From: Rhizobiales bacterium Y(2018)
GTDB taxonomy: Bacteria > Pseudomonadota > Alphaproteobacteria > Rhizobiales > Aestuariivirgaceae
Direction of reading: 5' to 3'
Length of the DNA stretch: 64,000 nt
Assembly (NCBI GenBank): GCA_005502925.1
Contig: SCPD01000017.1
Span: 62,001 to 126,000 of the forward strand
In this document: piece by piece, positions 5,253-63,231 of the stretch
How positions within the stretch are numbered: the first letter of the stretch is position 1
How the letters are laid out: each line of letters starts with the position of its first letter
Translations under genes and position numbers: made by a program
Notes under the pieces: generated by a model
Told to the model about the DNA's origin: nothing
Database searches by the model: none
Seen by the model: the letters and a program-made list of their open reading frames with translations, nothing else

Positions 5253-6347
5253 TCACCGAACCGGGGCGAGCTGCGCCAGCAGCCGGGCAAGGTCGACTTG
5301 CCGCCGGCAACCGGTCTTGCCGAGCACGCTCTTCAGCTGGTTGCGCACGGTTTCGACGCTTTTGCCGTCGGCTCGGGCGATTTGCTCCGGCGTCTGCCCG
5401 GCGGCGATCCGCGCCGCCACCACCACCTCCGCCGGCGAAAGATCGAACAGCGCCTGGAGCAGCGGCGTCGCCTGAGTTGGCGTCGTCGAAGCCGTAGTGA
5501 GGACTAGGATAGCCGCCGCCTGCCCGAAAAGATCATGCGCGGCGCGGCGGATCGGCACCACATGCAGCACTGCGGGCGGCGCGTCTTCCTCGGGCAGAAG
5601 CGGCAACGAACGCACGCCCTGCCCCGTCGCAATCAGGCCGAGCGTCTCCGCGAGCAGCCCGTCGGCGCGCCGGTCGGTGAGCGCGATACGGTTGCCGAGG
5701 CGCGTCGTCCACAGGCTTCTGGCGGCGTCGAACTCGGCATTGGCGACCAGCACGGTGCCCGCCCGGGTGACCGCGCAGGCCGCCAGCCCCAGCCCCGACA
5801 GCGTCTCGACCGCGGTGCGCGCCCGCTCGAAGGCGAGCCGCGCCGCGACAAGCGACGAACGCGCCAGATGCGGCCTGAGGCCATCGAGGCTCCGGACGAT
5901 CGTCGGCGTAAAAGGCCCGTGCCGGTAGTCGCCCTCGGCGCTCAGGATGATCGTGTCGCCGGTCGGCACATTGATTGCCGTGGCGATGCCGCGGCCGAAA
6001 CCGTTCGGAATCAAACATTCCGTATACAGCGGTTCGGCGAGCAATTCGGCTTCTGTATAGACATCGCGATCGTTCACAAACCCGGCCCGTTTCACCGCCA
6101 TCAGGCGGCGCGAACGTTCCGGTCCGCGGGGATGGTCGTAATGCTGGCGGGCGAGTTCCTCGGCGAGCGGCGAGCAGCCGATCCACTTGAAGCTTCCTTC
6201 CCTGGTGGCAACCAGGGCCGCGACGCGGCACTCCGCCACCTCCGTGAAGCCGCGCAGGACTTGCGGCCAGAATTCCGGCAGCACGGCAGCTTCATAGATG
6301 CCGTCCACCAAGTCCTCATGCGCCGATCCGCCGTCAGACCGTATCAT
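5253..6347 (-). CDS. LuxR-type HTH transcriptional regulator
   Basis: This 364-residue protein ends in a LuxR/FixJ-type helix-turn-helix (about 295-355: LSPAEVVVAARIAAGQTPEQ, then the recognition helix SVETVRNQLKSVLGKTGC). The N-terminal 280 residues have no recognisable autoinducer-binding signature; they look like the GAF/PAS-like sensor region found in a rhizobial family of similar length. No response-regulator aspartate domain is present. The gene lies between the IclR gene and the ABC importer, all minus strand, with 62 bp before the importer's last gene, so it may be transcribed separately. Its target is unknown; the neighbouring importer is one candidate. Confidence 0.85.
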   Translation of the reverse strand: MIRSDGGSAHEDLVDGIYEAAVLPEFWPQVLRGFTEVAECRVAALVATREGSFKWIGCSPLAEELARQHYDHPRGPERSRRLMAVKRAGFVNDRDVYTEAELLAEPLYTECLIPNGFGRGIATAINVPTGDTIILSAEGDYRHGPFTPTIVRSLDGLRPHLARSSLVAARLAFERARTAVETLSGLGLAACAVTRAGTVLVANAEFDAARSLWTTRLGNRIALTDRRADGLLAETLGLIATGQGVRSLPLLPEEDAPPAVLHVVPIRRAAHDLFGQAAAILVLTTASTTPTQATPLLQALFDLSPAEVVVAARIAAGQTPEQIARADGKSVETVRNQLKSVLGKTGCRRQVDLARLLAQLAPVR

Positions 6348-6409
6348 CGCTCGCCCCGGAACTGTTACAGGCGAGACACTAGCAGAACGGAGAGAAAGTC
6401 AAAGTCGGT

Positions 6410-7369
6410 TCAGGAAGCCGGCCGCGAAGGCCGCAGCCGGTCTAGGAGGCTCACCAGGCCGCCCGGCGCCAGCCGCAGGATGAGCACCATGACGACGGCG
6501 ACGACGATGAAGCGGGCTTCCTCGAAGCCCTGGATGCCGGCCAGCGCCTCAGTCAGGAAGGTCAGCGCCAGCGCCGCGGCGATCGGGCCATAAAGCGTAC
6601 CGACGCCGCCGAGCAGCACCATCGACAGGACCAGTGACATCGTGCCGAAGCCGAAGACCTCGGGCGAGGCGACGCGCAGATAGATCGCGTAGAACCCGCC
6701 GGCGATGCCGGTAAAGATGGCGCTCAGCACCAAAACGAGGATGCGCTGGCGCGACACCGAGATGCCGCGCGCAGTCGAATAATCCTGCGCGTCGCGCACC
6801 GCCAGCAGCGCCTTGCCGAAAGGCGACTGCACCACGAAACGCAGGAACAGCGTCGACAGCACCAGCAGCCCCAGCGCGACATAGTAGTAGCCGAACTTGA
6901 AATCGCGGATGAAGCTGTAGTCGCCGAGCTGCAGATAGGGAATGCGCACCATGCCCTCGCCGCCGCCGGTGATCTGCGACTGGCTGAGCACCAGCTGCAT
7001 GGCAAGCTGGCTGACGGCGAAGGTGACGAGCACCACATAGATGCCTTTGAGCCGCGCCACCGGTGCGGCGATGAGAAACGCCGCCCCAGCCGCGGTGATG
7101 CCGCCGAGCGGAATGGCGAGCCAGGGTGTGATGCCGAAGGTCTTGGCGGCGATCGCCGCCGTATAGACGCCGACGCCGAAGAAGGTGAGATGCCCGAAAT
7201 TGAACACACCGCAATAGCCGAGGCTCAAATTCCAGTTCGCGGCGACGATGGCATAGATGAAGGCGATGATGAACAGATGGCGCGTATAGCTGTCGGTCGC
7301 CAGGAACGGCACGACGAGCAGCAAAGCGAGAGCAAAAAGGGGCGCGAAGCGGCGCAGCGAAGTCGTCAT
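6410..7369 (-). CDS. livM: Branched-chain amino acid-type ABC transporter permease (LivM family)
   Basis: The start is the ATG at 7367-7369, which overlaps the stop of the upstream permease gene by one base; longer upstream reading would run through that gene in another frame. The 319-residue protein is very hydrophobic with about 8-10 membrane helices and the LivM-type stretch NLSLGYCGVFNFGHLTFFGV near residues 45-65. The C-terminal region (GGVGTLYGPIAAAL) is the conserved loop that contacts the ATPase. It forms the inner-membrane channel with the LivH-type partner. It is the last gene of a five-component importer operon. Substrate could be amino acids, amides, urea or aromatic acids, since this family is broad. 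Confidence 0.93.
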   Translation of the reverse strand: MTTSLRRFAPLFALALLLVVPFLATDSYTRHLFIIAFIYAIVAANWNLSLGYCGVFNFGHLTFFGVGVYTAAIAAKTFGITPWLAIPLGGITAAGAAFLIAAPVARLKGIYVVLVTFAVSQLAMQLVLSQSQITGGGEGMVRIPYLQLGDYSFIRDFKFGYYYVALGLLVLSTLFLRFVVQSPFGKALLAVRDAQDYSTARGISVSRQRILVLVLSAIFTGIAGGFYAIYLRVASPEVFGFGTMSLVLSMVLLGGVGTLYGPIAAALALTFLTEALAGIQGFEEARFIVVAVVMVLILRLAPGGLVSLLDRLRPSRPAS

Positions 7370-8232
7370 CACGCCCTCCCGAACAGGCCGTTGGGCCGGA
7401 AGATGAGGACGGCGATCATCAGAAGGAACAACGCGAAGGGCGTCCAGTAGAGCCCGAGCCACAAGATGAGAAAGGCTTCGAGAAGCCCGATGACATAGGC
7501 GGCACCGGCGGTGGCGCCAAGACTGCCGAGCCCGCCGAAGATCACCACGATCATCGCCTTGACCAACGGCTCCGATCCCATGACCGGCGTGATGAAGCGG
7601 ATCGAGCCCAGAAGTGCCCCGGTGAGCCCGGCGAGCGCCGCGGCAAGGCCGAAGGCGATGGCGAAAGCATAGGGTACATCGATGCCGATCAGCGCCGCTG
7701 AATCCTGGTTCTGGCCGACGGCGCGCAAAGACCGCCCGCGATTGGTCATCGCCGTGAACCGCCACAGCAGCAGAAGCACGATCGGCGCCAGCAGGATGAT
7801 GATCGCCTCGTGCCAGGAGATCGTGGCGCCGAAGATCGACACATCGCCGGTGACGAGGCGCGGCAGTTGCTTGAGTTTGGCGCCCCAGATGAGCTGTGCG
7901 CCTTTTTCCAGGATGATCAGGGCGGCGAGCGTCGTCATCACGGTGACGAGCAGCATGTGCCTTGTGCCGTAGAACGGCCGGATCAGCAGATATTCAATGA
8001 CGATGCCGCACAGCGCCGCGACGGCGACGCCGGCGAGGATGCCCGGCAGGAGCCCCAGCCCCATCCCCTCGCTCACCGTCCAGGCGGCATAGGCGCCGAT
8101 CATCATCAAGGCGCCATGGGCGAAATTGAACACGCCGAGCGTCGTCCACACCACGCTGAGGCCGCTCGCCATCAGGGCATAGAGCGATCCGAGCAATATG
8201 CCTGAGACGAGGGTTGCGACGATCGAATTCAT
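7369..8232 (-). CDS. livH: Branched-chain amino acid-type ABC transporter permease (LivH family)
   Basis: The 287-residue protein has the LivH layout: an N-terminal helix pair with GILLGSLYALMASGLSVVWT, the motif GVFNFAHGALMMIGAY (about 33-48), and the conserved FGGLGSLGATAGA loop near 230. About eight membrane helices are visible. It pairs with the downstream LivM-type protein. The gene overlaps its upstream neighbour (the LivF-type ATPase) by 4 bp and its downstream neighbour by 1 bp, so translation is probably coupled. Confidence 0.94.
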   Translation of the reverse strand: MNSIVATLVSGILLGSLYALMASGLSVVWTTLGVFNFAHGALMMIGAYAAWTVSEGMGLGLLPGILAGVAVAALCGIVIEYLLIRPFYGTRHMLLVTVMTTLAALIILEKGAQLIWGAKLKQLPRLVTGDVSIFGATISWHEAIIILLAPIVLLLLWRFTAMTNRGRSLRAVGQNQDSAALIGIDVPYAFAIAFGLAAALAGLTGALLGSIRFITPVMGSEPLVKAMIVVIFGGLGSLGATAGAAYVIGLLEAFLILWLGLYWTPFALFLLMIAVLIFRPNGLFGRA

Positions 8233-51716: not shown

Positions 51717-53000
51717 GTGACCCGTTTCCTGATCGAGGGCCGCCACCCGATCTCAGGCGCGATCGAGCCCAAGGGCAGCAAGAATGCCGCGCTGCCGATC
51801 ATCGCCGCCACGCTTCTCACTGACGAGGCGGTCACCTTGACCCGCCTTCCCGACATCGCCGATGTGCGCGTGATGGCCAATCTGCTGCAGGAGATGGGTG
51901 CCACCGTCAGCCCGATCACCAACAACCGGGCCACCTTCCAGGCGGCGACGCTGCGCCATTCGGCGCCCGACCGCACGCTGTCGCAAGCCATCCGCGCCTC
52001 CTTCCTCCTGGCGGGCCCCCTTCTCGCCCGCACCGGCAGCGCGACCTTGCCGCGCCCCGGCGGCGACCGCATCGGCCGACGCCCGCTCGATGCGCATATC
52101 CTCGCCTTCCAGGAAATGGGCGCGGAAGTCGACATCACGCCGGACAGCTATTGCCTGACCGCCCCCAAGGGTCTCAAGCCCGCCGACATCTTCCTGGTCG
52201 AGATGAGCGTCATGGCGACCGAGAATATCGTCATGGCGGCTGTGCTCACACCAGGGACCACTCATATCCACAACGCCGCCAGCGAGCCGCATATCCAGGA
52301 TCTCTGCCAATTGCTCATCGCCATGGGGGCGCGCATCGACGGCGTCGGCTCCAATGTGCTGACCATCGAGGGCGTCACGTCGCTCCATGGCGCCACCCAT
52401 GAGATCGGGCCGGATTATCTGGAAGTCGGCAGCTTCATCGGCCTTGCCGCAGCAACCGGCGGTGATCTCCTGATCCGCAACTGCCGCCCGCGCGAGCACC
52501 GCATGACGGCCATCGCCTATGGCCGGCTCGGCATCGAATGGGAAGTGCGCGGCGAGGACATCTATCTCCCCCGCCACCCGAAGCTCGAGATCCGCGAGGA
52601 CATGCATGGCGCATTGACCAAGATCGATGACGGTCCCTGGCCGGCCTTCCCGGCCGATCTCGTATCGATCGTGCTGGTCGTGGCGACCCAGGCCGCCGGC
52701 ACCATCCTGATCCACGAGAAGATGTTCGAAAGCCGCCTGTTCTGGGTCGACAAGCTGATTTCGATGGGCGCCCGCATCGTGCTGTGCGACCCGCACCGCG
52801 CCGTCGTCGTCGGCCCCTCGCCGCTCTCGGCTCAGCGCCTGTCGAGCCCCGATATCCGCGCCGGCATGGCGCTCGTCATCGCAGCACTCTGCGCCGAGGG
52901 CAAGAGCGAGATCCAGAATGTCGAGCAGATCGACCGCGGCTATGAAAGGCTCGACGAACGCCTGCGCGCTTTGGGCGCCAGGATTGAACGGGCAGACTGA
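51717..53000 (+). CDS. murA: MurA-type UDP-GlcNAc enolpyruvyltransferase with Asp at the catalytic Cys position
   Basis: The GTG at 51717 sits 5 nt after AAGGAG. The 427-residue protein is a full EPSP-synthase-fold MurA: Lys22 in PKGSKNAAL, Asp314 in PAFPADL, Arg381 in DIRAG and Arg407 in DRGYER are all kept. The loop that holds Cys115 in E. coli (PGGC) reads [11 protein letters not shown] here, with Asp117. The reaction moves enolpyruvyl from PEP to UDP-GlcNAc, the first peptidoglycan step. Asp at this place is known to keep activity and block fosfomycin. It lies beside regulators, not division genes, so it may be a second copy. Confidence 0.9.
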
Positions 53001-53893
53001 CCCACAAACTTTGCGATCAGCCATTCCTCGAGGGCACGCGCCGCCGGCGCCTGCTCGGTCTCGGGGGGCGCGATCAGATAATAGGGAAACGCCGCCGGCA
53101 CCGACAGCCGGAACGGTCTGACGAGGCGCCGGCTCGCCAGATCATCGCGCACCGTTGCGAGATCGCCCATCGCCACGCCATAGCCGGCGCGCGCCGCTTC
53201 GAGGGAGAGATGCGCGCTGTCGAAATAGACGCCACGCACCGACCGCGTCGCTGAGAGCCCCGCCGCCGCAAACCAGCGCGACCAGGCTTCATCCGTATAT
53301 TCATGGAGCAGCGTATGACCGAGGAGATCCTGGGGCGCTTTAAGTCCCGGCTTGCGCCGCTTCAGCGCCGGACTGCAGACCGGGAAGAACTCGGCATGGC
53401 CGAGGCGCACCACGCGTTTGCCCGGATGTTCGGCGCTGCCATAGGCGATGGCGAGATCGGCGCGGTCCGCCATCTTGGGATGGCGCCAATATTCAGTCAG
53501 CACATGAACGGCGACATTGGAATGAAGTGAGAGAAACTCACCGAGCCGCGGCACCAGCCAGTTGGCAGCGAGCCCCGGCACGCAGGAAAGCGTGATCTCG
53601 CCTTCGATCTCGCCGCTTTTGATGGCGCTCGCCGCGCGCGTCAGGCGCTCGAAGGAATCATGCACTGCCGCAAGGAGCTGCGCGCCCGCCGGCGTCAGTC
53701 CCATCGGCCGCTGGCTGCGGTCGAAAAGCGGGCTCGCCAGCTGTTCTTCCAGCGCCCGGATCTGATGCGAGACGGCGCCATGCGTCACCGCCAGCTCCTC
53801 GGCGGCACGCACGAGATTGCGATGCCTGGCCGCCGCCTCGAAGGCGCGCAACGCATTGAGCGGCAGGCGGTTGCGCGAGATCGAGGGCGGCAT
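52940..53893 (-). CDS. LysR-family transcriptional regulator
   Basis: The 317-residue protein has the LysR winged helix (about 8-68; [36 protein letters not shown]) and the periplasmic-binding-protein-like effector domain (about 95-300). It resembles the GcvA-like branch. Its 3' end overlaps the 3' end of murA by 61 bp in convergent orientation. It is divergent from the deiminase/peptide operon and most likely controls it, through sites at 53901-53922. Confidence 0.93.
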
Positions 53894-53900
53894 GGGTCGG

Positions 53901-53922
53901 GCTCACTGTGAACTAAGCTCAC
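53901..53922. promoter_or_regulatory. Candidate LysR sites in the divergent promoter
   Basis: GCTCAC occurs at 53901-53906 and 53917-53922, 16 bp apart, and GTGAACTAAGCTCAC (53908-53922) is a near-palindrome of 15 bp with one mismatch. It sits just upstream of the LysR start and about 90 bp before the deiminase gene. LysR regulators use such T-N11-A-type dyads. No binding is shown. Confidence 0.45.
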
Positions 53923-54009
53923 ATTAGCACAGAAGTTTTCTCGTTTTGCAATGCGGCACCCGGGTGAGACGATAGCTCCGTCAACGGATAAAAAATTGGA
54001 GGACGCGAG

Positions 54010-54903
54010 ATGAGTGGTGCGAATGGCGCCGTGGCCTGGGGTGTGTCGGCGCAGACCGGCGAATTGACCGATGTGCTGCTCGGCAAGCCCGATCATTTTC
54101 GCTGGGTGCCGCTCAATTCGATCTCGGCCGTGACCTTCGCCAATCAGGAGCAGATGGGCCATCGCTTCGACCAGCAGAAGGCCATGCATCAGCATCGCCT
54201 GATGGTCGATGCCTATGAGAAGGCCGGCGTGCGCTGCCATTTCGCCGAGGCCGATGAAGGCCTGCCCTCCAGCGTCTTCACTCGTGATTCGAGCTTCATG
54301 ACACCCTGGGGCGCCGTCATCACCTCGATCCAGACACCGCCGCGCCGGCGCGATTACGCGGTCGCCTCCGAATTCTACCGCGAGGCCGGTATCCCGATCT
54401 GGAAATGGGTGACCGCCGGCCATTTCGAAGGCGGCGATTTCGTTATCCTCAAGCCCGGCGTGGCGCTGCTCGGCTGGTCGGGCGATCGCTCGACCAAGGA
54501 AGGCGCCGATCAGGTCGCCGGCTGGCTGCGCGAGAAGTCCTGGGAAGTCCAGATCGTGCCGATCCCACCGCAATTCGTGCATATGGATGCGGTAGTGGTG
54601 ATGCTCGAGAAAGGCGTGGCGCTCGTCTGCGAGGATGCGCTGCCGCCCTATGGCCTCGACTACATCCAGAAGAAACACGGCATCGAGATCATCAAGGTCG
54701 CTTATGCCGACTGCGTGAAGCTCGGCGGCAATGTCGTGAGCCTCGGCAAGAAACGTGTTTTGTCGATGAGCCACAATGTGAATGTGAACCGCCAGCTGAA
54801 GGAAGCCGGCTTCGAGGTCACCGCCGTCGACTATGAAATGTTCGCATTGGGCGGTGGCGGCGTTCATTGCTCTTGCCATGAGCTGCGCCGCAATCCCGAT
54901 TGA
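54010..54903 (+). CDS. Arginine-deiminase/DDAH-superfamily hydrolase
   Basis: The ATG follows TTGGAGGAC. The 297-residue protein has the guanidino-group-modifying fold: FEGGDF (about 138-143), HMD (about 193-195) and the catalytic Cys287 in GGGGVHCSC. Members hydrolyse arginine, agmatine, methylarginines or related guanidino compounds to citrulline-type products. The length fits DDAH or small deiminase types better than classical arginine deiminase (about 400 residues). It is the first gene of the peptide-import operon, so the substrate may come from imported compounds. Confidence 0.88.
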   Translation: MSGANGAVAWGVSAQTGELTDVLLGKPDHFRWVPLNSISAVTFANQEQMGHRFDQQKAMHQHRLMVDAYEKAGVRCHFAEADEGLPSSVFTRDSSFMTPWGAVITSIQTPPRRRDYAVASEFYREAGIPIWKWVTAGHFEGGDFVILKPGVALLGWSGDRSTKEGADQVAGWLREKSWEVQIVPIPPQFVHMDAVVVMLEKGVALVCEDALPPYGLDYIQKKHGIEIIKVAYADCVKLGGNVVSLGKKRVLSMSHNVNVNRQLKEAGFEVTAVDYEMFALGGGGVHCSCHELRRNPD

Positions 54904-54938
54904 ACCTGCAATAATCAAATATAACTGGGGAGGATGGA

Positions 54939-56486
54939 ATGACGAAAACTATCATGACGAACCGCCGCCAGATCCTGGCCGGCATGTCGGCCTTTGCCGC
55001 GGCGGGCCTGATCGGCGGCATCACGCCGGCCCGCGCCCAGGCGCCACGCAAGGGCGGCAAATTCAGATATGCCATTGTCGGCGCCTCGATCTCGGATGCC
55101 TTCGATCCCTCGACCTTCGCCGATATCGCGCCCGGCATGATGAGCTGGCAGAGCCGCAGCAATCTGGTCGAGCTTGGCCCCGACCTTAAGCTCAAGCCCG
55201 AGCTCGCCGAAAGTTTCGAAGGCACCGATCAGGCACGCAAATGGATCTTCAAGCTGCGCAAGGGCGTCGAATTCCATAATGGCAAGACGCTGAGCCCTGA
55301 GGACGTGATCTTCTCGCTCGGGCTTCATACGCGGCCTGATTCAAAATCCTCGATCAAGCCGACGCTCGACGGCATCGCCGACATGAAGGCCGACGGCAAG
55401 GACACGCTCATCATCACGCTGAAGGAGCCGAATGCCGATTTCCCCTTCGCGCTCGCCGATTACCACGCCCAGATCCTCCCCGCCGGGACGACCAACTTCA
55501 ATGACGGCATCGGCACCGGCCCCTATGTGATGAAGACCTTCGATCCGGGCGTGCGCTGCACCGGCGCCCGCTTCGCCAATTATTGGAAGGAAGGCCATGG
55601 CAATTTCGACGAGGTCGAATGCCTGGCGATCTCCGACAGTACCGCGCGCATGAACGCGCTCTCGACCGGCGATCTCGACGCGGTCATGTTCGTCGATCTC
55701 AAGACGCTGAGCCTCATCGAGCGCAATCCCGCCATCAAGGTCATCAAGGTGCAGAGCGGGGCCCATATGACCTTGCCGATGCATGCCACTGTGGCGCCCT
55801 TCGACAATAACGACGTGCGCCTCGCCCTCAAATTTGCGCTCGACCGCCAGGAGCTCGTCGACAAGCTGTTGCGTGGCAATGGCGTCGTCGGCAATGACCA
55901 TCCGATCCCGCCCTCGAGCCCCTATTACGCCGCCGACCTGCCGCAACGCGCCTATGACCCCGACAAGACGCGCTTCCACCTGAAGAAGGCCGGGCTCGAC
56001 AAGCTCACCGTTCAGCTCAGCGCTTCCAATGTGATTCTCGATATCGGTTCCGACACGGCGTCCCTCTATCGCGAAAGCGCCGCCAAGGCCGGCATCGACA
56101 TCGAAACCGTGCAGGAGCCGGCCGACAGCTATTGGTCGAATGTCTGGCAGAAGAAACCCTTCTGCGCGAGTTACTTTGGCGCCAGGCCGACGCCCGACGG
56201 CATCTTCTCGTTGGCCTACGGCACCAAGGCGCCGTGGAACGAAAGCTTCTGGTCCAATGCCCGTTTCGACGAGCTGATGAAGCAGGGCCGTGCCGAGCTC
56301 GACGAGGCCAAGCGCAAGGCGATCTATGGCGAAATGCAGCGCATCCTCAACGAGGAAGGCTCGACCATCGTCCCGCTTTTCCCGGCGGTGATCGATGCCA
56401 CCTCCGACAAGATCGCCACCGGCACGGTCGCCGGCAATCTCAACATGGATGGCGGCCGCGCCGCCGACCGCTGGTGGTTCGCCTAA
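54939..56486 (+). CDS. Peptide-type ABC importer substrate-binding protein (family 5, Tat-like signal)
   Basis: The 515-residue protein has an NRRQILAGMSAFAAAG signal with paired arginines (about 7-22) and cleavage near ARAQA. The mature part is an extracellular solute-binding protein of the peptide/nickel family (LKPELAESFEGTD, WIFKLRKGVEFHNGKTLSPEDV about 96-118, and the closing NMDGGRAADRWWFA). It binds a peptide-like ligand in the periplasm. Thirty-five bp separate it from the deiminase gene; a strong stem-loop follows at 56541-56580. Confidence 0.92.
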   Translation: MTKTIMTNRRQILAGMSAFAAAGLIGGITPARAQAPRKGGKFRYAIVGASISDAFDPSTFADIAPGMMSWQSRSNLVELGPDLKLKPELAESFEGTDQARKWIFKLRKGVEFHNGKTLSPEDVIFSLGLHTRPDSKSSIKPTLDGIADMKADGKDTLIITLKEPNADFPFALADYHAQILPAGTTNFNDGIGTGPYVMKTFDPGVRCTGARFANYWKEGHGNFDEVECLAISDSTARMNALSTGDLDAVMFVDLKTLSLIERNPAIKVIKVQSGAHMTLPMHATVAPFDNNDVRLALKFALDRQELVDKLLRGNGVVGNDHPIPPSSPYYAADLPQRAYDPDKTRFHLKKAGLDKLTVQLSASNVILDIGSDTASLYRESAAKAGIDIETVQEPADSYWSNVWQKKPFCASYFGARPTPDGIFSLAYGTKAPWNESFWSNARFDELMKQGRAELDEAKRKAIYGEMQRILNEEGSTIVPLFPAVIDATSDKIATGTVAGNLNMDGGRAADRWWFA

Positions 56487-56540
56487 CCAAGTCTTCCTTC
56501 GCTATCGGCACGCGCCGATCATCCGCGTCCCTTCACGATC

Positions 56541-56580
56541 CTGGCCGTCGTCATGCGTCGAGATGCTTGACGACGGCCAG
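56541..56580. other. Intercistronic 13-bp stem-loop between binding protein and permease genes
   Basis: CTGGCCGTCGTCA (56541-56553) and TGACGACGGCCAG (56568-56580) are exact reverse complements around a 14-nt loop. Stems at this place often protect a highly expressed binding-protein mRNA from decay. It lies at the spot where a first permease gene (DppB type) would be expected but is absent. Confidence 0.7.
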
Positions 56581-57406
56581 CAAGGCGGTTAGCTTTCCCC
56601 ATTGCCGGAACGATCCGGCAAAACGAGCGCAGCCAGTCATCCTCGCGGCCCTCCTCGGCAGTTGGTTCGGGCTCGGCGGCAGTCCGACCGACATCGTCGG
56701 CCGGCGCCTGCAACCGCCCTCGCTGGCCTTTCCGGCGGGCACCGACAATCTCGGACGGTCGGTGCTGCCACGGCTCCTGGCCGGCGTCACCACCACCCTC
56801 CTCCTCTCAGCCGCTGCCGTCGTACTGGCGGCGCTCATCGCGACGATCAGCGGCATCATGGCCGGCTATTACGGCGGCCGGATCGGCGGAACGATCATGC
56901 GGATCGGCGATATCCTCTGCGCCTTCCCGGCCATCGTCCTCGCCATCCTGGTCGCCGCCGTCGTCGGTCCCGGCTCCATCGCGGCCCTCGCCAGCATCGT
57001 CCTCGTCACCGTGCCGCTGATGACCCGCATGGTCGGCCAGGCCGCCCGGCAGGTGGCGCAACGCGAGTTCATCACCTCGGCCATCATCAGCGGCGTCGGC
57101 ACCCGCACCCTCATGATCCGGCATATCCTGCCGAATGTGGCGGGGACGATCGCGATTCAGGGGACTTATGCTCTCTCCGTCGCGATCCTCGTCGAAGGTG
57201 GGCTGTCCTTCCTCGGCTATGGCGTCCAGGTGCCCAACGCCTCTCTCGGGCTCCTGGTGCAGGAAGGTGCGGTCTACATGGTGAAGGCGCCATGGCTGAT
57301 CCTGGCGCCTGGCGCCATCCTGGTGATCGCGATCCTCGCCATCAACCTCATCGGCGACAGCCTGCGCGACCGTTTCGATCCGCGCGAAGCGAGGTCGCTG
57401 ACATGA
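56567..57406 (+). CDS. Peptide-type ABC importer permease (DppC family), start uncertain
   Basis: The frame runs open from within the previous gene, and no good ATG exists before the conserved part. A TTG at 56567-56569 gives 279 residues, but it lies in the stem-loop, so its use is doubtful. The conserved core (AGTDNLGRSVLPRLLAGV, then GFLS-type FLGYGVQVPNASLG) is a clear DppC permease with about five helices. The first helix (PVILAALLGSWFGLGG) looks short compared with relatives. A frame change around 56600-56640 or an N-terminal loss is possible. ATGA overlap joins it to the ATPase gene. Confidence 0.75.
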   Translation: MTTASKAVSFPHCRNDPAKRAQPVILAALLGSWFGLGGSPTDIVGRRLQPPSLAFPAGTDNLGRSVLPRLLAGVTTTLLLSAAAVVLAALIATISGIMAGYYGGRIGGTIMRIGDILCAFPAIVLAILVAAVVGPGSIAALASIVLVTVPLMTRMVGQAARQVAQREFITSAIISGVGTRTLMIRHILPNVAGTIAIQGTYALSVAILVEGGLSFLGYGVQVPNASLGLLVQEGAVYMVKAPWLILAPGAILVIAILAINLIGDSLRDRFDPREARSLT

Positions 57407-58269
57407 GCCCGATCCTCGACATCGCGAATGTGACCATCGAATATCCAGGCAACGGCGCCCGCGTTCGCGCGCTCGACGGCGCGACCTTGCGCGTCGATGC
57501 CGGTGAGACCGTCGGTCTCGTCGGTGAATCGGGATCCGGCAAAACCACCCTCGGCCTTCTCGCCGGACGCTTGCTGCCGCGCAGCGCCATGGTGACCGGC
57601 GGACAGGTCCGCATTGACGGCCAGGATGTGCTGGCGCTCGATGACCAGCGCCGGCGCGCGCTGCGCCGCGAATGCCTCGGCTACATTCCACAGGATCCGG
57701 TCGCCGCCCTCGATCCGACCATGCGGATCGGCCGGCAGCTCGAGCTCGTCCTGCGCGGCCTGCCCCACGACACCGCCAGTCTTCTGCGGCATCTCGACAG
57801 TGTCCAGATCAATGAGCCCGACCGCGTGCTGCGCCTGTTTCCGCATGAGATTTCGGGCGGCATGGCGCAGCGCGTCATGATCGCAATGGCCATGGCGCGG
57901 ACGCCACGTTTGCTGGTGGCCGATGAGCCGACCGCCTCCCTCGACAGCCATGTCCGCACCGAGGTGACGAAGCTGATCTTCAGCCTCGCCGCCAAGGCCG
58001 GCGCGACCGTGCTCTGGCTCAGCCACGATCTGCGCTCGGTCAGCCGCTGGTGTGAGCGTGTCGTCGTCATGTATGGCGGCAAGGTGATGGAGGATGGACC
58101 GGCGGCGCAGGTCCTGCGGCACCCGACGCATCCCTACACGATCGCGCTGGCGGCGTCGGACCCGGCCCGGGCGGAGCCCGGCCAGCGCATCGGCACCAAG
58201 CCGTACGATCCGACCGCATCCGACACTGAGATGCCTTCCGTCCGGATAGCCGCAGGAGGTGGGAGATGA
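57403..58269 (+). CDS. Peptide-type ABC importer ATPase (DppD family)
   Basis: The ATG at 57403 overlaps the permease stop (ATGA) and gives 288 residues. Walker A GESGSGKTT (about 42-50), signature ISGGMAQRV (about 151-159) and Walker B LLVADEPTASLD are present, followed by the C-terminal HPYTIALAAS oligopeptide-ATPase tail. It powers uptake together with the next ATPase. It is somewhat shorter than the usual DppD, mostly at the C-terminus. Confidence 0.93.
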   Translation: MSPILDIANVTIEYPGNGARVRALDGATLRVDAGETVGLVGESGSGKTTLGLLAGRLLPRSAMVTGGQVRIDGQDVLALDDQRRRALRRECLGYIPQDPVAALDPTMRIGRQLELVLRGLPHDTASLLRHLDSVQINEPDRVLRLFPHEISGGMAQRVMIAMAMARTPRLLVADEPTASLDSHVRTEVTKLIFSLAAKAGATVLWLSHDLRSVSRWCERVVVMYGGKVMEDGPAAQVLRHPTHPYTIALAASDPARAEPGQRIGTKPYDPTASDTEMPSVRIAAGGGR

Positions 58270-59021
58270 ACGAGCCGGTTCTGGCGCTCGACGACGTCAC
58301 CACAGCCTTCACCAGCGGCTGGGGCCCTCATCACTCGGTCATCGCCGCGATGCGCGATGTGACATTCGCGGTGCATGCCGGCGAGACACTCGGACTGGTC
58401 GGCGAATCCGGCTCAGGCAAGTCGACGACCGCCAGCGTCGCGCTTGGACTGCGCACGCCGACATCAGGCCGCGTGCGCTTTCTCGGCAAGCCTTTCGGCG
58501 ACCGCAAGGATCGGATCGGACTTCTCCAGGCCGTGTCGCAGAATCCGCTCTGGTCGCTCAATCCCCGGCTTCGGGTCGGACTGTCGATCGCCGAGCCGCT
58601 CGCGGCACTCGACCGCTCATCCCTGGCGAGCCATGCTGCGGCGGTTGAAGCGATGCTCGACAAGGTCCGGCTCGACCGCGCTCTGGCGCAGCGTTTCCCG
58701 CATGAGCTTTCCGGCGGCCAGCGCCAGCGGGTCACGATCGCCAGGGCCCTCATCACCAAGCCGCGCTTCATCATCTTCGATGAGGCCGTCAGCGCGCTCG
58801 ACGTCTCCGTCCAGGCCCAGATCCTCAATCTCATCACCGATCTGCAGGCCGAGCACGGCTTCGCCGCGCTGTTCATCTCGCATGATCTCGCGGCGGTGCG
58901 CTACATCGCGCATCGCATCGCCGTGATGCGGCGGGGCCAGATCGTCGAGCTGGCGGAAACCTCGCGTTTCTATGCGCGGCCGCAACATGAATATTCCCGT
59001 CAACTTCTGGAGGCATTGTGA
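58266..59021 (+). CDS. Peptide-type ABC importer ATPase (DppF family)
   Basis: The 251-residue ATPase has Walker A GESGSGKST (about 45-53), the signature LSGGQRQRV (about 147-155) and Walker B FIIFDEAVSALDVS, typical of DppF. It overlaps both neighbours by 4 bp. It lacks the longer C-terminal domain found in many DppF proteins. Confidence 0.94.
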   Translation: MNEPVLALDDVTTAFTSGWGPHHSVIAAMRDVTFAVHAGETLGLVGESGSGKSTTASVALGLRTPTSGRVRFLGKPFGDRKDRIGLLQAVSQNPLWSLNPRLRVGLSIAEPLAALDRSSLASHAAAVEAMLDKVRLDRALAQRFPHELSGGQRQRVTIARALITKPRFIIFDEAVSALDVSVQAQILNLITDLQAEHGFAALFISHDLAAVRYIAHRIAVMRRGQIVELAETSRFYARPQHEYSRQLLEAL

Positions 59022-60046
59022 CCACCAACCGCGACCATCGTCTCTGCGGCGTCCCCAGCTGGGGCGAACGCCGCGGCAATAGCGAGATCCGCCCCGTTCC
59101 ACGCACCGGCGGCCATAAGGATCTCGTCGAATACGACTTTCCCGGCATCGAGGTCGGGGTCGGGGTCGCCGACTATGCCGAAGGCCCGACGGGCGCAACC
59201 GTCATCCACATTCCGGCCGGCGCCCGGCTCGCCATCGATGCCCGCGGCGGCGCCATCGGCATGAGCAACGGCTTCGAATATTTCGCCCATGCGATCTGCC
59301 TGACCGGCGGATCGGTCTATGGCCTCTCCGCCGGCGCCGGCGTCGCCGAGGAGCTGCATGCGCAGCACGGCAATCGCGGCTCGGTCGATGATCTCAAGCT
59401 CGTCTCGACCGCGGTGATCTACGACTTCTCGGCGCGCGACAATGCGATCATCCCGGACGCGGCGCTCGGCCGGGCGGCGGTGCGCGCCGCCGCCCATGGT
59501 GCTGTCCCGGTCGGCCGTGTCGGCGCCGGGTCCAGCGCCAGCGCCGGCAAGATCGACCATGCCCGGACCGAATTCACCGGCCAGGGCGCCGCTTTCGGCA
59601 AGGCCGGCAAGGCACGGGTGCTGGTCGTCACGGTCGTGAATCCGGTTGGCGTCATCGTCGGCCGCGACGGCTCGGTGATTCGTGGCAATTACGATGCCGC
59701 CAGCGGCCGGCGGCGGCCATTGGCGAGCGACTGCCTGGAGATGCTGGAGCAATCGCAGCCGGCGCGGGCGGCGCGCGGCAACACGACCGTCACCGCCGTG
59801 GTTACCAATGTGCGCCTCACCGACAAGGAGCTCATCCATTTCGGACGCCAGGTGCATTCCTCGATGAACCGCGCCATCCAGCCCTTCCACACGGCGCTCG
59901 ACGGCGACACCTTGTTTGCGCTGACGACCGATGAGGTCGAACTCGCGCCGCCGCCCGACCGCGACAATGGCTTGATGAACTCCATCGCGCTCGGCACCTT
60001 TGCCTCCGAGCTCGCCTGGGATGCGGTGCTGAGGGCTGTGAGATGA
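59018..60046 (+). CDS. P1-family (S58/DmpA-like) self-processing peptidase, first copy
   Basis: The GTG at 59018 overlaps the ATPase stop (GTGA). The 342-residue protein has the DmpA fold with the glycine-rich N-terminal part (EGPTGATVI, RGGAIGMSNGFEY), the NPVGVIVGRDGSVIRG core (about 208-223) and the self-cleavage site GNTTVTAVV, where Asn255-Thr256 is the likely cut and Thr256 the new nucleophile. DmpA-type enzymes remove N-terminal residues, including D- and beta-amino acids, from short peptides or amides. It is a cytosolic enzyme of the import operon. Confidence 0.9.
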   Translation: MTTNRDHRLCGVPSWGERRGNSEIRPVPRTGGHKDLVEYDFPGIEVGVGVADYAEGPTGATVIHIPAGARLAIDARGGAIGMSNGFEYFAHAICLTGGSVYGLSAGAGVAEELHAQHGNRGSVDDLKLVSTAVIYDFSARDNAIIPDAALGRAAVRAAAHGAVPVGRVGAGSSASAGKIDHARTEFTGQGAAFGKAGKARVLVVTVVNPVGVIVGRDGSVIRGNYDAASGRRRPLASDCLEMLEQSQPARAARGNTTVTAVVTNVRLTDKELIHFGRQVHSSMNRAIQPFHTALDGDTLFALTTDEVELAPPPDRDNGLMNSIALGTFASELAWDAVLRAVR

Positions 60047-61098
60047 ACAAGGGATCGACCATGCCGCTTTACGACGACAGCCTGCCTCACCGTCTGACAC
60101 CGCCGCCATTCTGGGAGAAGCGCCCCGGCAACCGGGATGTGACTCTCGTGCCGACACATGGCGAAGGCCGGGACAAGGTGGCCTTCGACTTCCCCGGCAT
60201 CGCCGTCGGGACCGCTGAATATGCCGAAGGACCGACCGGCGCCACGGTGATCTCCATCCCCGCCGGCGCTCGCACCGCCGTCGATGCCCGCGGCGGCGCC
60301 ATCGGCATTATCGGCCGGTATGAGGACCTCAACCACGCCATCTGCTTTGCCGGCGGATCTTCCTACGGTCTCGCGGCCGCGACCGGGGTCAGCGAGGAGA
60401 TGCTGGCGCAGCTCGGCAACAAGGTAAGCTGGCAGGATCTGCGCTCGACATCGGGCGCCGTGATCTATGACCTCGCCGCCCGCGACACCGGGATCGTGCC
60501 CGACGCGGCGCTCGGCCGGGCGGCCTACCGGGCAGCGCGCAGCGACTGGATTCCGGTCGGCCGCGTCGGCGCCGGCATCGGCGCCTCGGCCGGCAAGATC
60601 GACCTGGCCCGCTGCGAATTTACGGGCCAGGGTGCCGCTTTCGCCAAACTCGGCCCCATCCGCATCCTCATCGTCACCATCGTCAATCCTGTCGGCGTCA
60701 TCGTCGGCCGCGACGGTACCGTGATCCGCGGCAATTACGATCGCGAGACAAGCGAACGCCGCCTGCCGGTCCTGGATTATGAGCGCGCGCTGCGTGAAGG
60801 GACAACACCGACCACGGCCGCCGGCAACACGACGGTCACCGCGGTGGTGACCAATGTGCGCCTGGACGACAAGGAGCTGCGGCTGTTCGGCCGCCAGGTG
60901 CATTCCTCCATGCATCGGACGATCCAGCCCTTCCACACCAACCATGACGGCGACACATTGTTCGCTCTGACGACCGACGAGGTCGAGCTGCCGCCGGCGG
61001 GAAGCACACGTCTCGGCGAGCATGCGGTCAATTCCATCGCGCTCGCATCGGTCGCCTCGGAGCTTGCCTGGGACGCCGTACTGGCGAGCGCCCGATGA
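60043..61098 (+). CDS. P1-family (S58/DmpA-like) self-processing peptidase, second copy
   Basis: The 351-residue protein is a paralogue of the one just before it: nearly every motif is shared (EGPTGATVI, NPVGVIVGRDG, GNTTVTAVVTN with cut Asn262-Thr263, and FALTTDEVEL). The N-terminus and the loop before the cleavage site differ. The pair may have different specificity or form hetero-oligomers. It overlaps both neighbours by 4 bp. Confidence 0.9.
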   Translation: MNKGSTMPLYDDSLPHRLTPPPFWEKRPGNRDVTLVPTHGEGRDKVAFDFPGIAVGTAEYAEGPTGATVISIPAGARTAVDARGGAIGIIGRYEDLNHAICFAGGSSYGLAAATGVSEEMLAQLGNKVSWQDLRSTSGAVIYDLAARDTGIVPDAALGRAAYRAARSDWIPVGRVGAGIGASAGKIDLARCEFTGQGAAFAKLGPIRILIVTIVNPVGVIVGRDGTVIRGNYDRETSERRLPVLDYERALREGTTPTTAAGNTTVTAVVTNVRLDDKELRLFGRQVHSSMHRTIQPFHTNHDGDTLFALTTDEVELPPAGSTRLGEHAVNSIALASVASELAWDAVLASAR

Positions 61099-62168
61099 CG
61101 GTCCATCGTTACGAGACGGATGAGTCCGATTCGTTCCGCCGCGGCGAGGCCATCGGACGGGCCTTCGCCGGCGAGATCATCGCGAATATCGAAGGATACC
61201 GGGAGCTGTTCCGCGCCGTCCGCGTCGACGAAGCCGGCTTGCCGGCGCTGGGAGAAACGGCGCTGGACCATATCGATCGCTGGGCGCCCGATCTCGGCGC
61301 CGAGTTGCACGGATCGGCCAAGGGTGCCGGCATCCCCCTCTGGCAGATCGGCATGCTGAATGCCCGCACCGAGATCCTCGCCACCGTCAAGGCGATCGGC
61401 GAAGGCGAATGCTCGACCTCGGTGATCCTTCCCGACAGCGGCCCTCCCCGCACCATCCAGACCTGGGACTGGCACGATGTCTCGAACGAGAACACGCTGG
61501 TGGTGCGCTACCCGACACGCGGCGGCCGGACGGTGCGCTATTTCACCGAATTCGGCATCCTCGGCAAGATCGGGCTCAACGACGCCGGCATCGGCGTGCA
61601 TTTCAACATTCTCAACCATGAGAGCGACGGCCAGGGGATCGGCGTTCCCGTCCATGCTGTGGCCCGCGCGGTTCTCGATGGCGCGAGCAATCTCGCTGAA
61701 GCCGTGGCGATCGCGCAATCGGCGGAGGTCTCCGCCTCGACCGTACTCACCCTCGTGTCCTATGCCGACGGCAAGGCGGATGCCGCTCAGGTGGAACTGA
61801 GCTCGGGCGGCCATGCCACGCTCCATGCGCCGGAAGATGGATTCCTGCTGCACACCAACCACTTCCTCGACCGGCGGCTGGCGGCGGGCGAGCTTTCGCC
61901 CACGGAGTCGAGCACCTTTCCCAGGCTCGAGCATCTCCAGGCCCGGCGCGCGCTGCTGGCCGCCATCGATCCGGTGGATCGGGTGGCGGGCCTTCTCGTG
62001 CATCAGGCCGATGGCGCGCCGATCTGCTGCCACCCGGATCCCGCACTCTCCTTCGAGAATCGCTGGCAGTCGCTGATCACGATCGCGCTCGATCTCGAAC
62101 GGTCGCGGCTCGAATTTCACGAAGGTGGCCCCTGTACGGTGAGGCGCGAATCCTGGCAGGTGTTCTGA
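61095..62168 (+). CDS. C45-family acyltransferase/hydrolase (Ntn type)
   Basis: The 357-residue protein resembles peptidase C45 (isopenicillin N acyltransferase-like) enzymes. IPLWQIGMLNARTEIL (about 80-95) is typical, and Cys106 in GEGECSTSV would be the N-terminal nucleophile after self-cleavage. TWDWH and FNILNH (about 118-180) carry substrate-site residues. Members hydrolyse or transfer acyl groups on amides and beta-lactam-like compounds. It overlaps the preceding peptidase gene by 4 bp. Confidence 0.85.
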   Translation: MTVHRYETDESDSFRRGEAIGRAFAGEIIANIEGYRELFRAVRVDEAGLPALGETALDHIDRWAPDLGAELHGSAKGAGIPLWQIGMLNARTEILATVKAIGEGECSTSVILPDSGPPRTIQTWDWHDVSNENTLVVRYPTRGGRTVRYFTEFGILGKIGLNDAGIGVHFNILNHESDGQGIGVPVHAVARAVLDGASNLAEAVAIAQSAEVSASTVLTLVSYADGKADAAQVELSSGGHATLHAPEDGFLLHTNHFLDRRLAAGELSPTESSTFPRLEHLQARRALLAAIDPVDRVAGLLVHQADGAPICCHPDPALSFENRWQSLITIALDLERSRLEFHEGGPCTVRRESWQVF

Positions 62169-62181
62169 GAGAGGTGGAGGA

Positions 62182-63231
62182 ATGACCCGGAAGCCGGCCC
62201 CGCCTGCGGGCGCGGTCACGATCATCGATGTGGCGCAGGCGGCCGGCGTCGCCAAGACGACGGCATCCGATGCGCTACGCGGGCGCGGACGGGTGTCGCC
62301 GGCGACGCGCGAGGCGGTGGTGGCCGCCGCAGCGCGCCTCGGCTTCTCGATCAACCGCTCGGCGCGTTCGCTGCGCACCGCGACAACCGGCGCCATCGGC
62401 CTCTATATTCCGCAGGTGCTCGCCCATACCGAGCATTATATGTCCTTCATCTATGGCGTCGTGAACGAGGCGGCGGCCTTCGATTACGACGTCACCCTGA
62501 TCGTCGCGTCGGGCCATGCGAAACACGGCTACGCGCCGCATGTCGACGGCATCGTCCTCATCGACCCCGTGGCCGAGGATCCCATGATCCAGAGGCTGCT
62601 CGACACCGGCCTTCCGATCGTCTCCTCCGAAAGGCTGCTCGGCCCCCGCCAGACGACCGGCGTCGTGTGGTCGAACCACGCGCAGTATTTCACGCTGCTG
62701 CTCGAGCATCTCGCCGAGCGCGGCGCCCGGCACCCGGCGATCATCGCCTCGACCACCCATTCCGAATGGTCCTTCGCCGTCCAACAGGCCTATGCCGACT
62801 GGTGCCGCGCGGCGGATGTCACGCCGCATCAGGCGCTCGCCCCCTTCGCGGCGCCACCGCCTCGCCTTCAGGAGATTGCCCGCGCGATGGTGACGGACGC
62901 TCCGGAGATCGATGCCTTCATCGGCGCGGGTGATGGTGTCGCCGCCGCGGTCGCGCAGGCGCTCGCCTCCGATGGCGTGCGCATCGGCAGCCGGATGCTC
63001 ATCGCCTCGGGTGTCGACAGCAGCGCCACACTCGCCGCCCAACCGCCGATCACCGCGATCAACACACAGGGCGGCGAAGGCGGCCAGCTCTGCGCCCGCC
63101 TGCTGTTCGACCTGCTGCAGGGGCGCGCGGAACCCGGCGTGGAGCTCGAATTGCCGCTTGAGATCTATTATCGTGCCTCCACGACCGGAGGTCACATTTC
63201 TTCAAGACCGGGCCGCAAACGAAGATCATGA
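62182..63231 (+). CDS. LacI-family transcriptional regulator
   Basis: The 349-residue protein has the LacI helix-turn-helix (about 13-60; VTIIDVAQAAGVAKTTASDAL) and the periplasmic-binding-like sensor domain (about 70-330). It follows the C45 gene by 13 bp, with AGGTGGAGG just before the ATG, so it belongs to the operon and probably regulates it. Sugar or amino-acid-like ligands are usual for the family. Confidence 0.92.
   Translation: MTRKPAPPAGAVTIIDVAQAAGVAKTTASDALRGRGRVSPATREAVVAAAARLGFSINRSARSLRTATTGAIGLYIPQVLAHTEHYMSFIYGVVNEAAAFDYDVTLIVASGHAKHGYAPHVDGIVLIDPVAEDPMIQRLLDTGLPIVSSERLLGPRQTTGVVWSNHAQYFTLLLEHLAERGARHPAIIASTTHSEWSFAVQQAYADWCRAADVTPHQALAPFAAPPPRLQEIARAMVTDAPEIDAFIGAGDGVAAAVAQALASDGVRIGSRMLIASGVDSSATLAAQPPITAINTQGGEGGQLCARLLFDLLQGRAEPGVELELPLEIYYRASTTGGHISSRPGRKRRS

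Follow-up and report, generated by a model that had tools for sequence, protein, structure and literature searches.

NylC, a 6-aminohexanoate-oligomer endohydrolase, is widely known for its action on a man-made polymer. DmpA-type aminopeptidases, of the same S58 family, have a Gly-Ser self-cleavage site. NylC is represented by PDB entry 5xyg and others, from plasmid pOAD2, Agromyces and Kocuria, and a passage of a 2026 review (PMC13215870) calls nylon a material without natural analogue. We analysed a window of 64,000 nucleotides, meaning the whole stretch of DNA, from Rhizobiales bacterium Y(2018) (contig SCPD01000017.1, positions 62,001 to 126,000), in which a first-pass annotation had described a peptidase-containing gene cluster. 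The survey of open reading frames confirms eight plus-strand frames at 54010-62168 with five 4-bp overlaps (dppC/first ATPase gene, first/second ATPase gene, second ATPase gene/S58a, S58a/S58b and S58b/C45), together with a divergent LysR-type and a terminal LacI-type regulator gene. The deiminase Cys287 is confirmed, and Pfam and NCBIfam recover the families listed: ADI/DDAH, SBP_bac_5, BPD_transp_1, two ABC ATPases, two Peptidase_S58 and C45 (Pfam AAT, NF040521). The first three genes (unit 1: LysR, deiminase and the solute-binding protein SBP1) and the remainder (unit 2) are two separate units. With a probability of about three in four, window positions 56567-63231 represent a conserved catabolic cassette for the uptake and hydrolysis of amide oligomers, in a damaged copy that was probably gained by horizontal transfer.

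The closest PDB match of S58b is NylC (399 bits over almost the full length), followed by Nyl12 (172 bits) and poly(hexamethylene adipamide) hydrolase (86 bits). S58b is 58% and S58a 56% identical to NylC. Seven compared active-site positions (Y142, K185, N215, N262, T263, D302 and D304 in S58b numbering) are the same in all three proteins, and among them Tyr142, Asp302 and Asp304 are presumably active-site residues of the NylC type. For NylC, Asn266/Thr267, Lys189 and Asn219 are named in a passage of PMC6021441. Full-length kinship exceeds that to any other S58 member, the Asn/Thr autocleavage site and the presumed catalytic residues are retained, and S58a and S58b are, on this basis, predicted NylC-type nylon-oligomer hydrolases. 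The pair had earlier been taken for DmpA-type. It shares the Pfam S58 family with the P1 enzymes DmpA, BapA and ThnT, and the 17 PDB hits, none of which bears the name DmpA or BapA, include an L-aminopeptidase/D-esterase at 70 bits and ThnT at 43 bits. A DmpA-type identity was rejected, since both window proteins carry Asn-Thr at the cleavage site and these scores lie far below that of NylC. The window genes differ from NylC in that they form a duplicated pair and sit with a C45 gene in an importer operon with a predicted LacI operator. The pair scores only 62 and 48 bits against the general S58 model; the window genome holds two more S58 genes (L001 and L002, on contigs C13 and C22), at 363 and 191 bits.

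A complete unit 2 is found in the nearest congener, G003 (locus L025; DNA 93-94% identical), in the order SBP2–DppB–DppC–OppD–OppF–S58a–S58b–C45–LacI. Scanning a collection of species genomes with an S58 alignment gave at least 155 relatives, and gene counts by tblastn were made for the best 80 loci. Thirty-nine of these, whose S58 protein shares 53% identity or more with one of the two in the window, constitute the cassette set. At least four of the five importer genes are present in all 39, C45 in 35 and a LacI-type match in 37, three of the latter being only 28-33% identical; the deiminase was found by tblastn in none (0/39). Among the remaining 41 loci, at least four importer-type genes occur in three (L093, where they are unrelated, L101 and L128) and C45 in none. 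In L093 (Arthrobacter castelli), where the S58 protein is slightly below 53%, the only importer is unrelated and reversed, and this locus was left out of the cassette set. Six cases show exactly the nine-gene order, twin S58 genes included (Leifsonia, Agromyces, Microbacterium paraoxydans, two Nocardiopsis and Herbiconiux). The Streptomyces arrangement is LacI-SBP-B-C-D-F-S58-C45, and a single S58 gene is found in Nonomuraea, other Microbacterium and others, as also in a Nonomuraea gerenzanensis record from a plasmid collection. By these counts, unit 2 is a conserved cassette of many actinobacteria. The synteny across genera that was proposed as a check of the original system is thus seen for the importer, S58, C45 and LacI genes and fails for the deiminase. 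A related arrangement in Variovorax (L054, L055, L101) shares an SBP2-like protein, four further importer genes and S58, but has RpiR in place of LacI, an M81 (MlrC-like) protein in place of C45, a divergent second S58 and no operator.

The S58 tree comprises 94 rows and was built by a quick method without bootstrap, with one very long outgroup branch. One clade (value 99, starred) unites 50 S58 rows of the 39 cassettes, L053, G003 and the window with NylC and L093, while the S58 rows of Variovorax and L128 fall outside it. NylC is sister to the S58 protein of Leucobacter sp. OLIS6 (98, starred), its closest relative among the matches listed at 88% identity, followed by those of L074 and L078 (93 each); all three genes lie within cassettes. 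The simplest reading is that NylC itself appears to have been recruited from such a cassette. The a and b copies derive from one duplication (pair 96, starred; copies 95, starred, and 83).

The predicted operator of unit 2, TGCCGGAWCGWTCCGGCA, is a palindrome with a central CG at 56603-56620. In all six upstream regions aligned it is preceded by TTGACG, a spacer of 17-18 nt (17 in the window) and TA--TT; the promoter call rests on this alignment, the consensus promoter scan having flagged no promoter here. When up to two mismatches are allowed, the operator is found at 37 of the 46 cassette loci (the 39 together with L053, L054, L055, L101, L128, G003 and the window). It stands in front of the gene for SBP2, copper amine oxidase, AT3 or LacI, or in the interval separating divergently oriented MOSC and SBP2 genes. 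A control of 1.07 Mb of other, partly overlapping loci gave one two-mismatch site. The nine loci lacking it have no LacI match (L087, L088), a distant LacI of 28-33% (L074, L078, L130) or another cassette type (L054, L055, L101, L128), and the operator recurs at cassettes with a close LacI. A central-CG palindrome that lies at the promoter and tracks the LacI gene points to a LacI-regulated operon. The 7.1-Mb window genome contains one exact site and two further two-mismatch sites (reversed control 0), and 16 actinobacterial genomes, picked from cassette hosts, have 1-3 sites each at no more than one mismatch (control 0). For example, an exact operator in Agromyces soli stands 75 kb from the cassette and 34 bp before another NylC-type gene, the third (L171:7270-8292; 54% identical to S58b), opposite which a divergent frame weakly matches amidohydrolase models. 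A one-mismatch operator is also found at another genomic place in Streptomyces (L172, G425:C1021:107918-107935). Separately, an imperfect palindrome with 19-nt arms (56541-56559/56562-56580) overlaps the -35 box of unit 2 and is present in G003 with two changes.

The C45 protein scores 228 bits against NF040521 (cut-off 85), and the EC(S/T)T nucleophile motif is kept in all 38 C45 proteins compared (35 cassettes, L053, G003 and the window). These features it shares with the acyl-coenzyme A:isopenicillin N acyltransferase type (PDB 2x1d); it differs in matching 2x1d at only 77 bits and in being a recurrent partner of an importer and NylC-type enzymes. Further genes accompany the cassettes. One for amine removal is near 34 of 39, either copper amine oxidase (23) or an AT3-type enzyme (11) and never both, against 0 and 3, respectively, at the other 41 loci. 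Of the copper amine oxidases, that of L053 was tested and proved AGAO-like, with 795 bits to phenylethylamine oxidase; the best PDB match of the AT3 gene tested (L063) is ethanolamine-phosphate phospho-lyase. A MOSC-FAD-NAD-2Fe2S reductase is near 10/39 cassettes and 0/41 other loci, its fusion domains having been checked with Pfam in four of the ten (MOSC_N only below cut-off). A PaiB-like FMN protein, never together with the MOSC reductase, is near 25/39 and 0/41. Glutaryl-CoA dehydrogenase, accompanied by aldehyde dehydrogenase and CoA-transferase, is near nine of the 39 (eight Nonomuraea, one labelled Actinomadura; that of L080 scores 623 bits to 3sf6), and the CoA-transferase of Frigoribacterium (L067) fits succinate-glutarate CoA-transferase best among NCBIfam models, below cut-off. 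This gene content suggests a route in which uptake leads to hydrolysis of the amide, a redox step such as N-O reduction, and deamination, with glutarate as a further stage in some hosts.

In its complete form, the cassette would work as follows. The binding protein and Dpp-type importer would take an amide-linked oligomer into the cell, where one or two NylC-type Ntn endohydrolases would cut its internal amide bonds and the C45 Ntn hydrolase a further acyl-amide bond. The freed amine would be removed by an aminotransferase-type enzyme or a copper amine oxidase, usually encoded nearby. The LacI repressor, bound to its predicted operator directly 3' of the -10 box, would hold the operon off until substrate or product is present. 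Most likely, the cassette serves to import a natural oligoamide, hydrolyse it and then remove the amine. The gene content and order, the operator sequence, the kinship to NylC and the deletion in the window are computational results; from them we infer hydrolysis in the cytoplasm, this division of labour, repression and a catabolic purpose. Part of the uptake-and-cleavage system for unusual amides proposed in the first-pass annotation therefore stands (importer, twin S58, C45 and LacI), and part does not: the deiminase, SBP1 and LysR lie outside it, as the 0/39 count and an empty site in a second congener indicate. Several observations weigh against this reading. The 53% cut was picked after inspecting the data. 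C45 was not seen in 4/39 cassettes (the stretch for L081 ends 0.6 kb past S58), nor an amine-removing gene at 5/39 (that for L060 begins 0.3 kb before SBP2), and AT3-type genes are also near 3/41 other loci. Nine of the 46 loci lack the operator, including the three nearest NylC (L074, L078, L130), whose LacI is the distant one. No AT3 or MOSC gene adjoins the cassette in the host genus, and in the window genome the MOSC query finds a match for its reductase half alone, and AT3 domains are at 39-40% identity. Back-end genes vary by lineage, and a single substrate for all cassettes is not proven.

Two proposals concern the substrate and are not alternatives to the cassette system as such. At roughly even odds, the substrate is a natural amide such as a peptide of beta-, D- or omega-amino acids, an isopeptide or an N-acylated amine (phenethylamine or ethanolamine conjugates). 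Relatives of S58 and C45 have unusual amides as substrates, and the phenylethylamine oxidase-like enzyme of L053 and the phospho-lyase-like AT3 domain of L063 fit such amines; taken by itself, this proposal leaves the MOSC reductases and glutarate genes unexplained. These are accommodated by a more tentative and rather doubtful one, that the substrate is a desferrioxamine-type hydroxamate oligomer built of N-hydroxy-N-succinylcadaverine units. The NylC-type enzyme would cut the amide on the NH-(CH2)5 side and C45 the other acyl bond, the MOSC reductase would strip the N-OH, and after amine removal the C5 chain would become glutarate and pass to glutaryl-CoA dehydrogenase. The distribution of the MOSC fusion (10/39 against 0/41) and the glutaryl-CoA dehydrogenase near 9/39, with its aldehyde dehydrogenase and CoA-transferase, are in its favour. 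To our knowledge, hydroxamate siderophores are not usually served by binding proteins of family 5, which speaks against it. Moreover, MOSC and glutarate genes belong to separate cassette types, with no locus seen having both, the AT3 fusion of L063 resembles an enzyme that the scheme does not need, and a direct link to desferrioxamine was found in none of the loci. As to known chemistry, a passage of PMC10637980 describes the reduction of hydroxamic acids by MOSC enzymes and the presence of such fused domains in some YcbX proteins. Parts of PMC11800396 report that bacterial amidases degrade desferrioxamines, which serve as C and N source, and a part of PMC6270104 that bisucaberin B, of two amide-joined units, is a degradation product of desferrioxamine B. 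The amidase degradation by the soil bacterium Azospirillum irakense shares with the scheme the amide-linked HSC units and the use as C and N source; the portions of PMC11800396 and PMC6270104 concerned name no gene, so any link to the cassette would be hypothetical. The portion of PMC11800396 concerned also has only the iron-free form attacked, with no peptide-backbone amide involved.

The damage to the cassette lies in its importer. By blastn, G003 is colinear with the window to 56635 and resumes at 56639; its extra 2733 bp between SBP1 and dppC hold SBP2 (539 aa), DppB (323 aa) and the true dppC start. The importer is broken in the window because these 2.7 kb were deleted. The peptide-type importer of the first-pass annotation is therefore present only in part: SBP, permease and ATPase genes exist, while the DppB-type permease and cognate SBP2 are absent and dppC lacks a usable start codon. 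Between 56480 and a GTG at 56762 its sole in-frame start is a TTG within the -35 box, and the next further upstream is a TTG at 56132, inside SBP1. Unlike its complete relatives, which share two permeases, two ATPases and a binding protein with importers of the Dpp, Opp and Nik type, the window version is incomplete, and its permease and ATPases fall under every NCBIfam cut-off listed (for the ATPases, the best 25 families). A search of the window genome (E<=1e-20) for cognate SBP2 and DppB found neither, identity being no higher than 30% for the seven SBP2 matches and 40% for the 39 to DppB; relocation of the importer genes was rejected on this ground. Both NylC-type enzymes, C45 and LacI remain intact reading frames behind an intact promoter. 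It is quite improbable that the gap is an assembly error and that the strain has a complete importer: the analysis is based on assembled sequence, in 37 contigs, but the gap is internal to one contig and cleanly flanked, and that search found no cognate genes elsewhere.

In another congener, G002 (L026), the LysR, deiminase and SBP1 genes are 93-94% identical to those of the window. Nine bases past the SBP1 stop the G002 sequence jumps to the equivalent of window 63190, so that unit 2 is wholly absent, and no importer permease or ATPase was found in the 10 kb after SBP1. Unit 2 is a separate block because G002 has unit 1 with an empty site and G003 the full unit 2; in the window it is also set apart by its own intact promoter and predicted operator (56567-56621). 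The eight-gene "operon", described earlier as one unit, is on this comparison two separate units fused by the deletion. That a single pathway nevertheless includes the deiminase and SBP1 is very unlikely, even though the genes are adjacent on one strand and, after the deletion, SBP1 and dppC are a mere 150 bp or so apart, so that read-through is possible; it was rejected on the deiminase's absence from all 39 cassettes, the empty site in G002 and the separate promoter. Among 20 deiminase loci fetched (several of them short contigs), only that of G003 has S58 or C45. The deiminase, with up to five matches per genome in the host's bacterial family, is a superfamily member only (Pfam ADI 72 and DDAH_eukar 68 bits, both above cut-off; best NCBIfam equivalog 83 bits against a cut-off of 300). 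Unit 1 is apparently a chance neighbour of the cassette. Some deiminase copies (L035 = G000:C11:594129-594992, L040 and L042) adjoin a LysR gene whose product is 43-44% identical to that of the window.

Unit 2 was either inserted in the ancestor of the window genome (G000) and G003 or cleanly lost in G002. Insertion is favoured because of kinship, near relatives being scarce within the order and actinobacterial outside it. At E<=1e-30, S58b relatives in a 397-genome sample of the order, evidently without G003, which would match, were confined to the own genome and three others (36-47% identity), and the nearest outside S58 relatives among the matches listed are actinobacterial, with Leifsonia at 84%. 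The G+C content of unit 2 (67.6%, against 63.2% for window 1-53893) lends weak support, because MurA itself stands at 66.3%. Unit 2 was thus probably acquired horizontally from actinobacteria. A recent adaptation to nylon waste, which the 56-58% identity to NylC might suggest, is highly unlikely because the cassettes are too diverse, having diverged over six named actinobacterial families (five with the common operator), and their associated genes are glutarate-type, not adipate-type.

Table 1. Features of the two units and their boundaries in the window.
Feature	Unit	Position	Strand	Evidence
LysR-type regulator, GcvA-like, divergent, outside cassette	1	52940..53893	-	Pfam/NCBIfam; stays with unit 1 in congener G002 without unit 2
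DDAH/ADI-like guanidino hydrolase, Cys287, outside cassette	1	54010..54903	+	Pfam; deiminase-locus survey
Orphan family-5 solute-binding protein SBP1, outside cassette	1	54939..56486	+	Pfam; G002 comparison
Promoter TTGACG, 17 nt, TAGCTT	2	56567..56595	+	Alignment of 6 upstream regions, hexamer positions conserved
Putative LacI-type operator TTGCCGGAACGATCCGGCAA, immediately 3' of -10	2	56602..56621	.	Sequence only
Deletion junction, 2733 bp of G003 (L025 7555-10287) gone		56635..56639	.	blastn; pairwise alignment
dppC remnant, start lost	2	56639..57406	+	Sequence comparison with G003
OppD/DppD-like ATPase	2	57403..58269	+	Pfam/NCBIfam
OppF/DppF-like ATPase	2	58266..59021	+	Pfam/NCBIfam
S58a, predicted NylC-type Ntn hydrolase, 56% identity to NylC	2	59018..60046	+	Alignment, tree
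S58b, predicted NylC-type Ntn hydrolase, 58% identity to NylC, predicted autocleavage Asn262/Thr263	2	60043..61098	+	
C45 autoproteolytic acyl-amide hydrolase, predicted nucleophile Cys106	2	61095..62168	+	NF040521 228 bits; motif
LacI-type regulator, last ~14 codons run into old host sequence	2	62182..63231	+	Pfam; congener alignment
3' edge of unit 2 against empty site of G002	2	63190..63209	.	Window 63190 resumes at L026 6768

Elsewhere in the window, positions 6001-8000 show an AT skew of 0.257, a peak at 6-8 kb that probably stems from minus-strand membrane permease frames of the branched-chain-amino-acid type.

The literature search, with most subscription papers beyond reach, found no description of the cassette and no natural substrate of NylC; the first-pass annotation likewise recognised no described pathway of such composition. 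The cassette would be a hitherto undescribed, conserved genomic home of NylC-type hydrolases, equipped with a common predicted operator. A conserved cassette whose NylC-type enzymes include one at 88% identity to NylC offers a concrete place in which to seek the natural substrate, with the operator, the partner hydrolase and the downstream enzymes as leads. The cassettes may also offer further NylC-type enzymes, selected within a pathway, for polyamide recycling.

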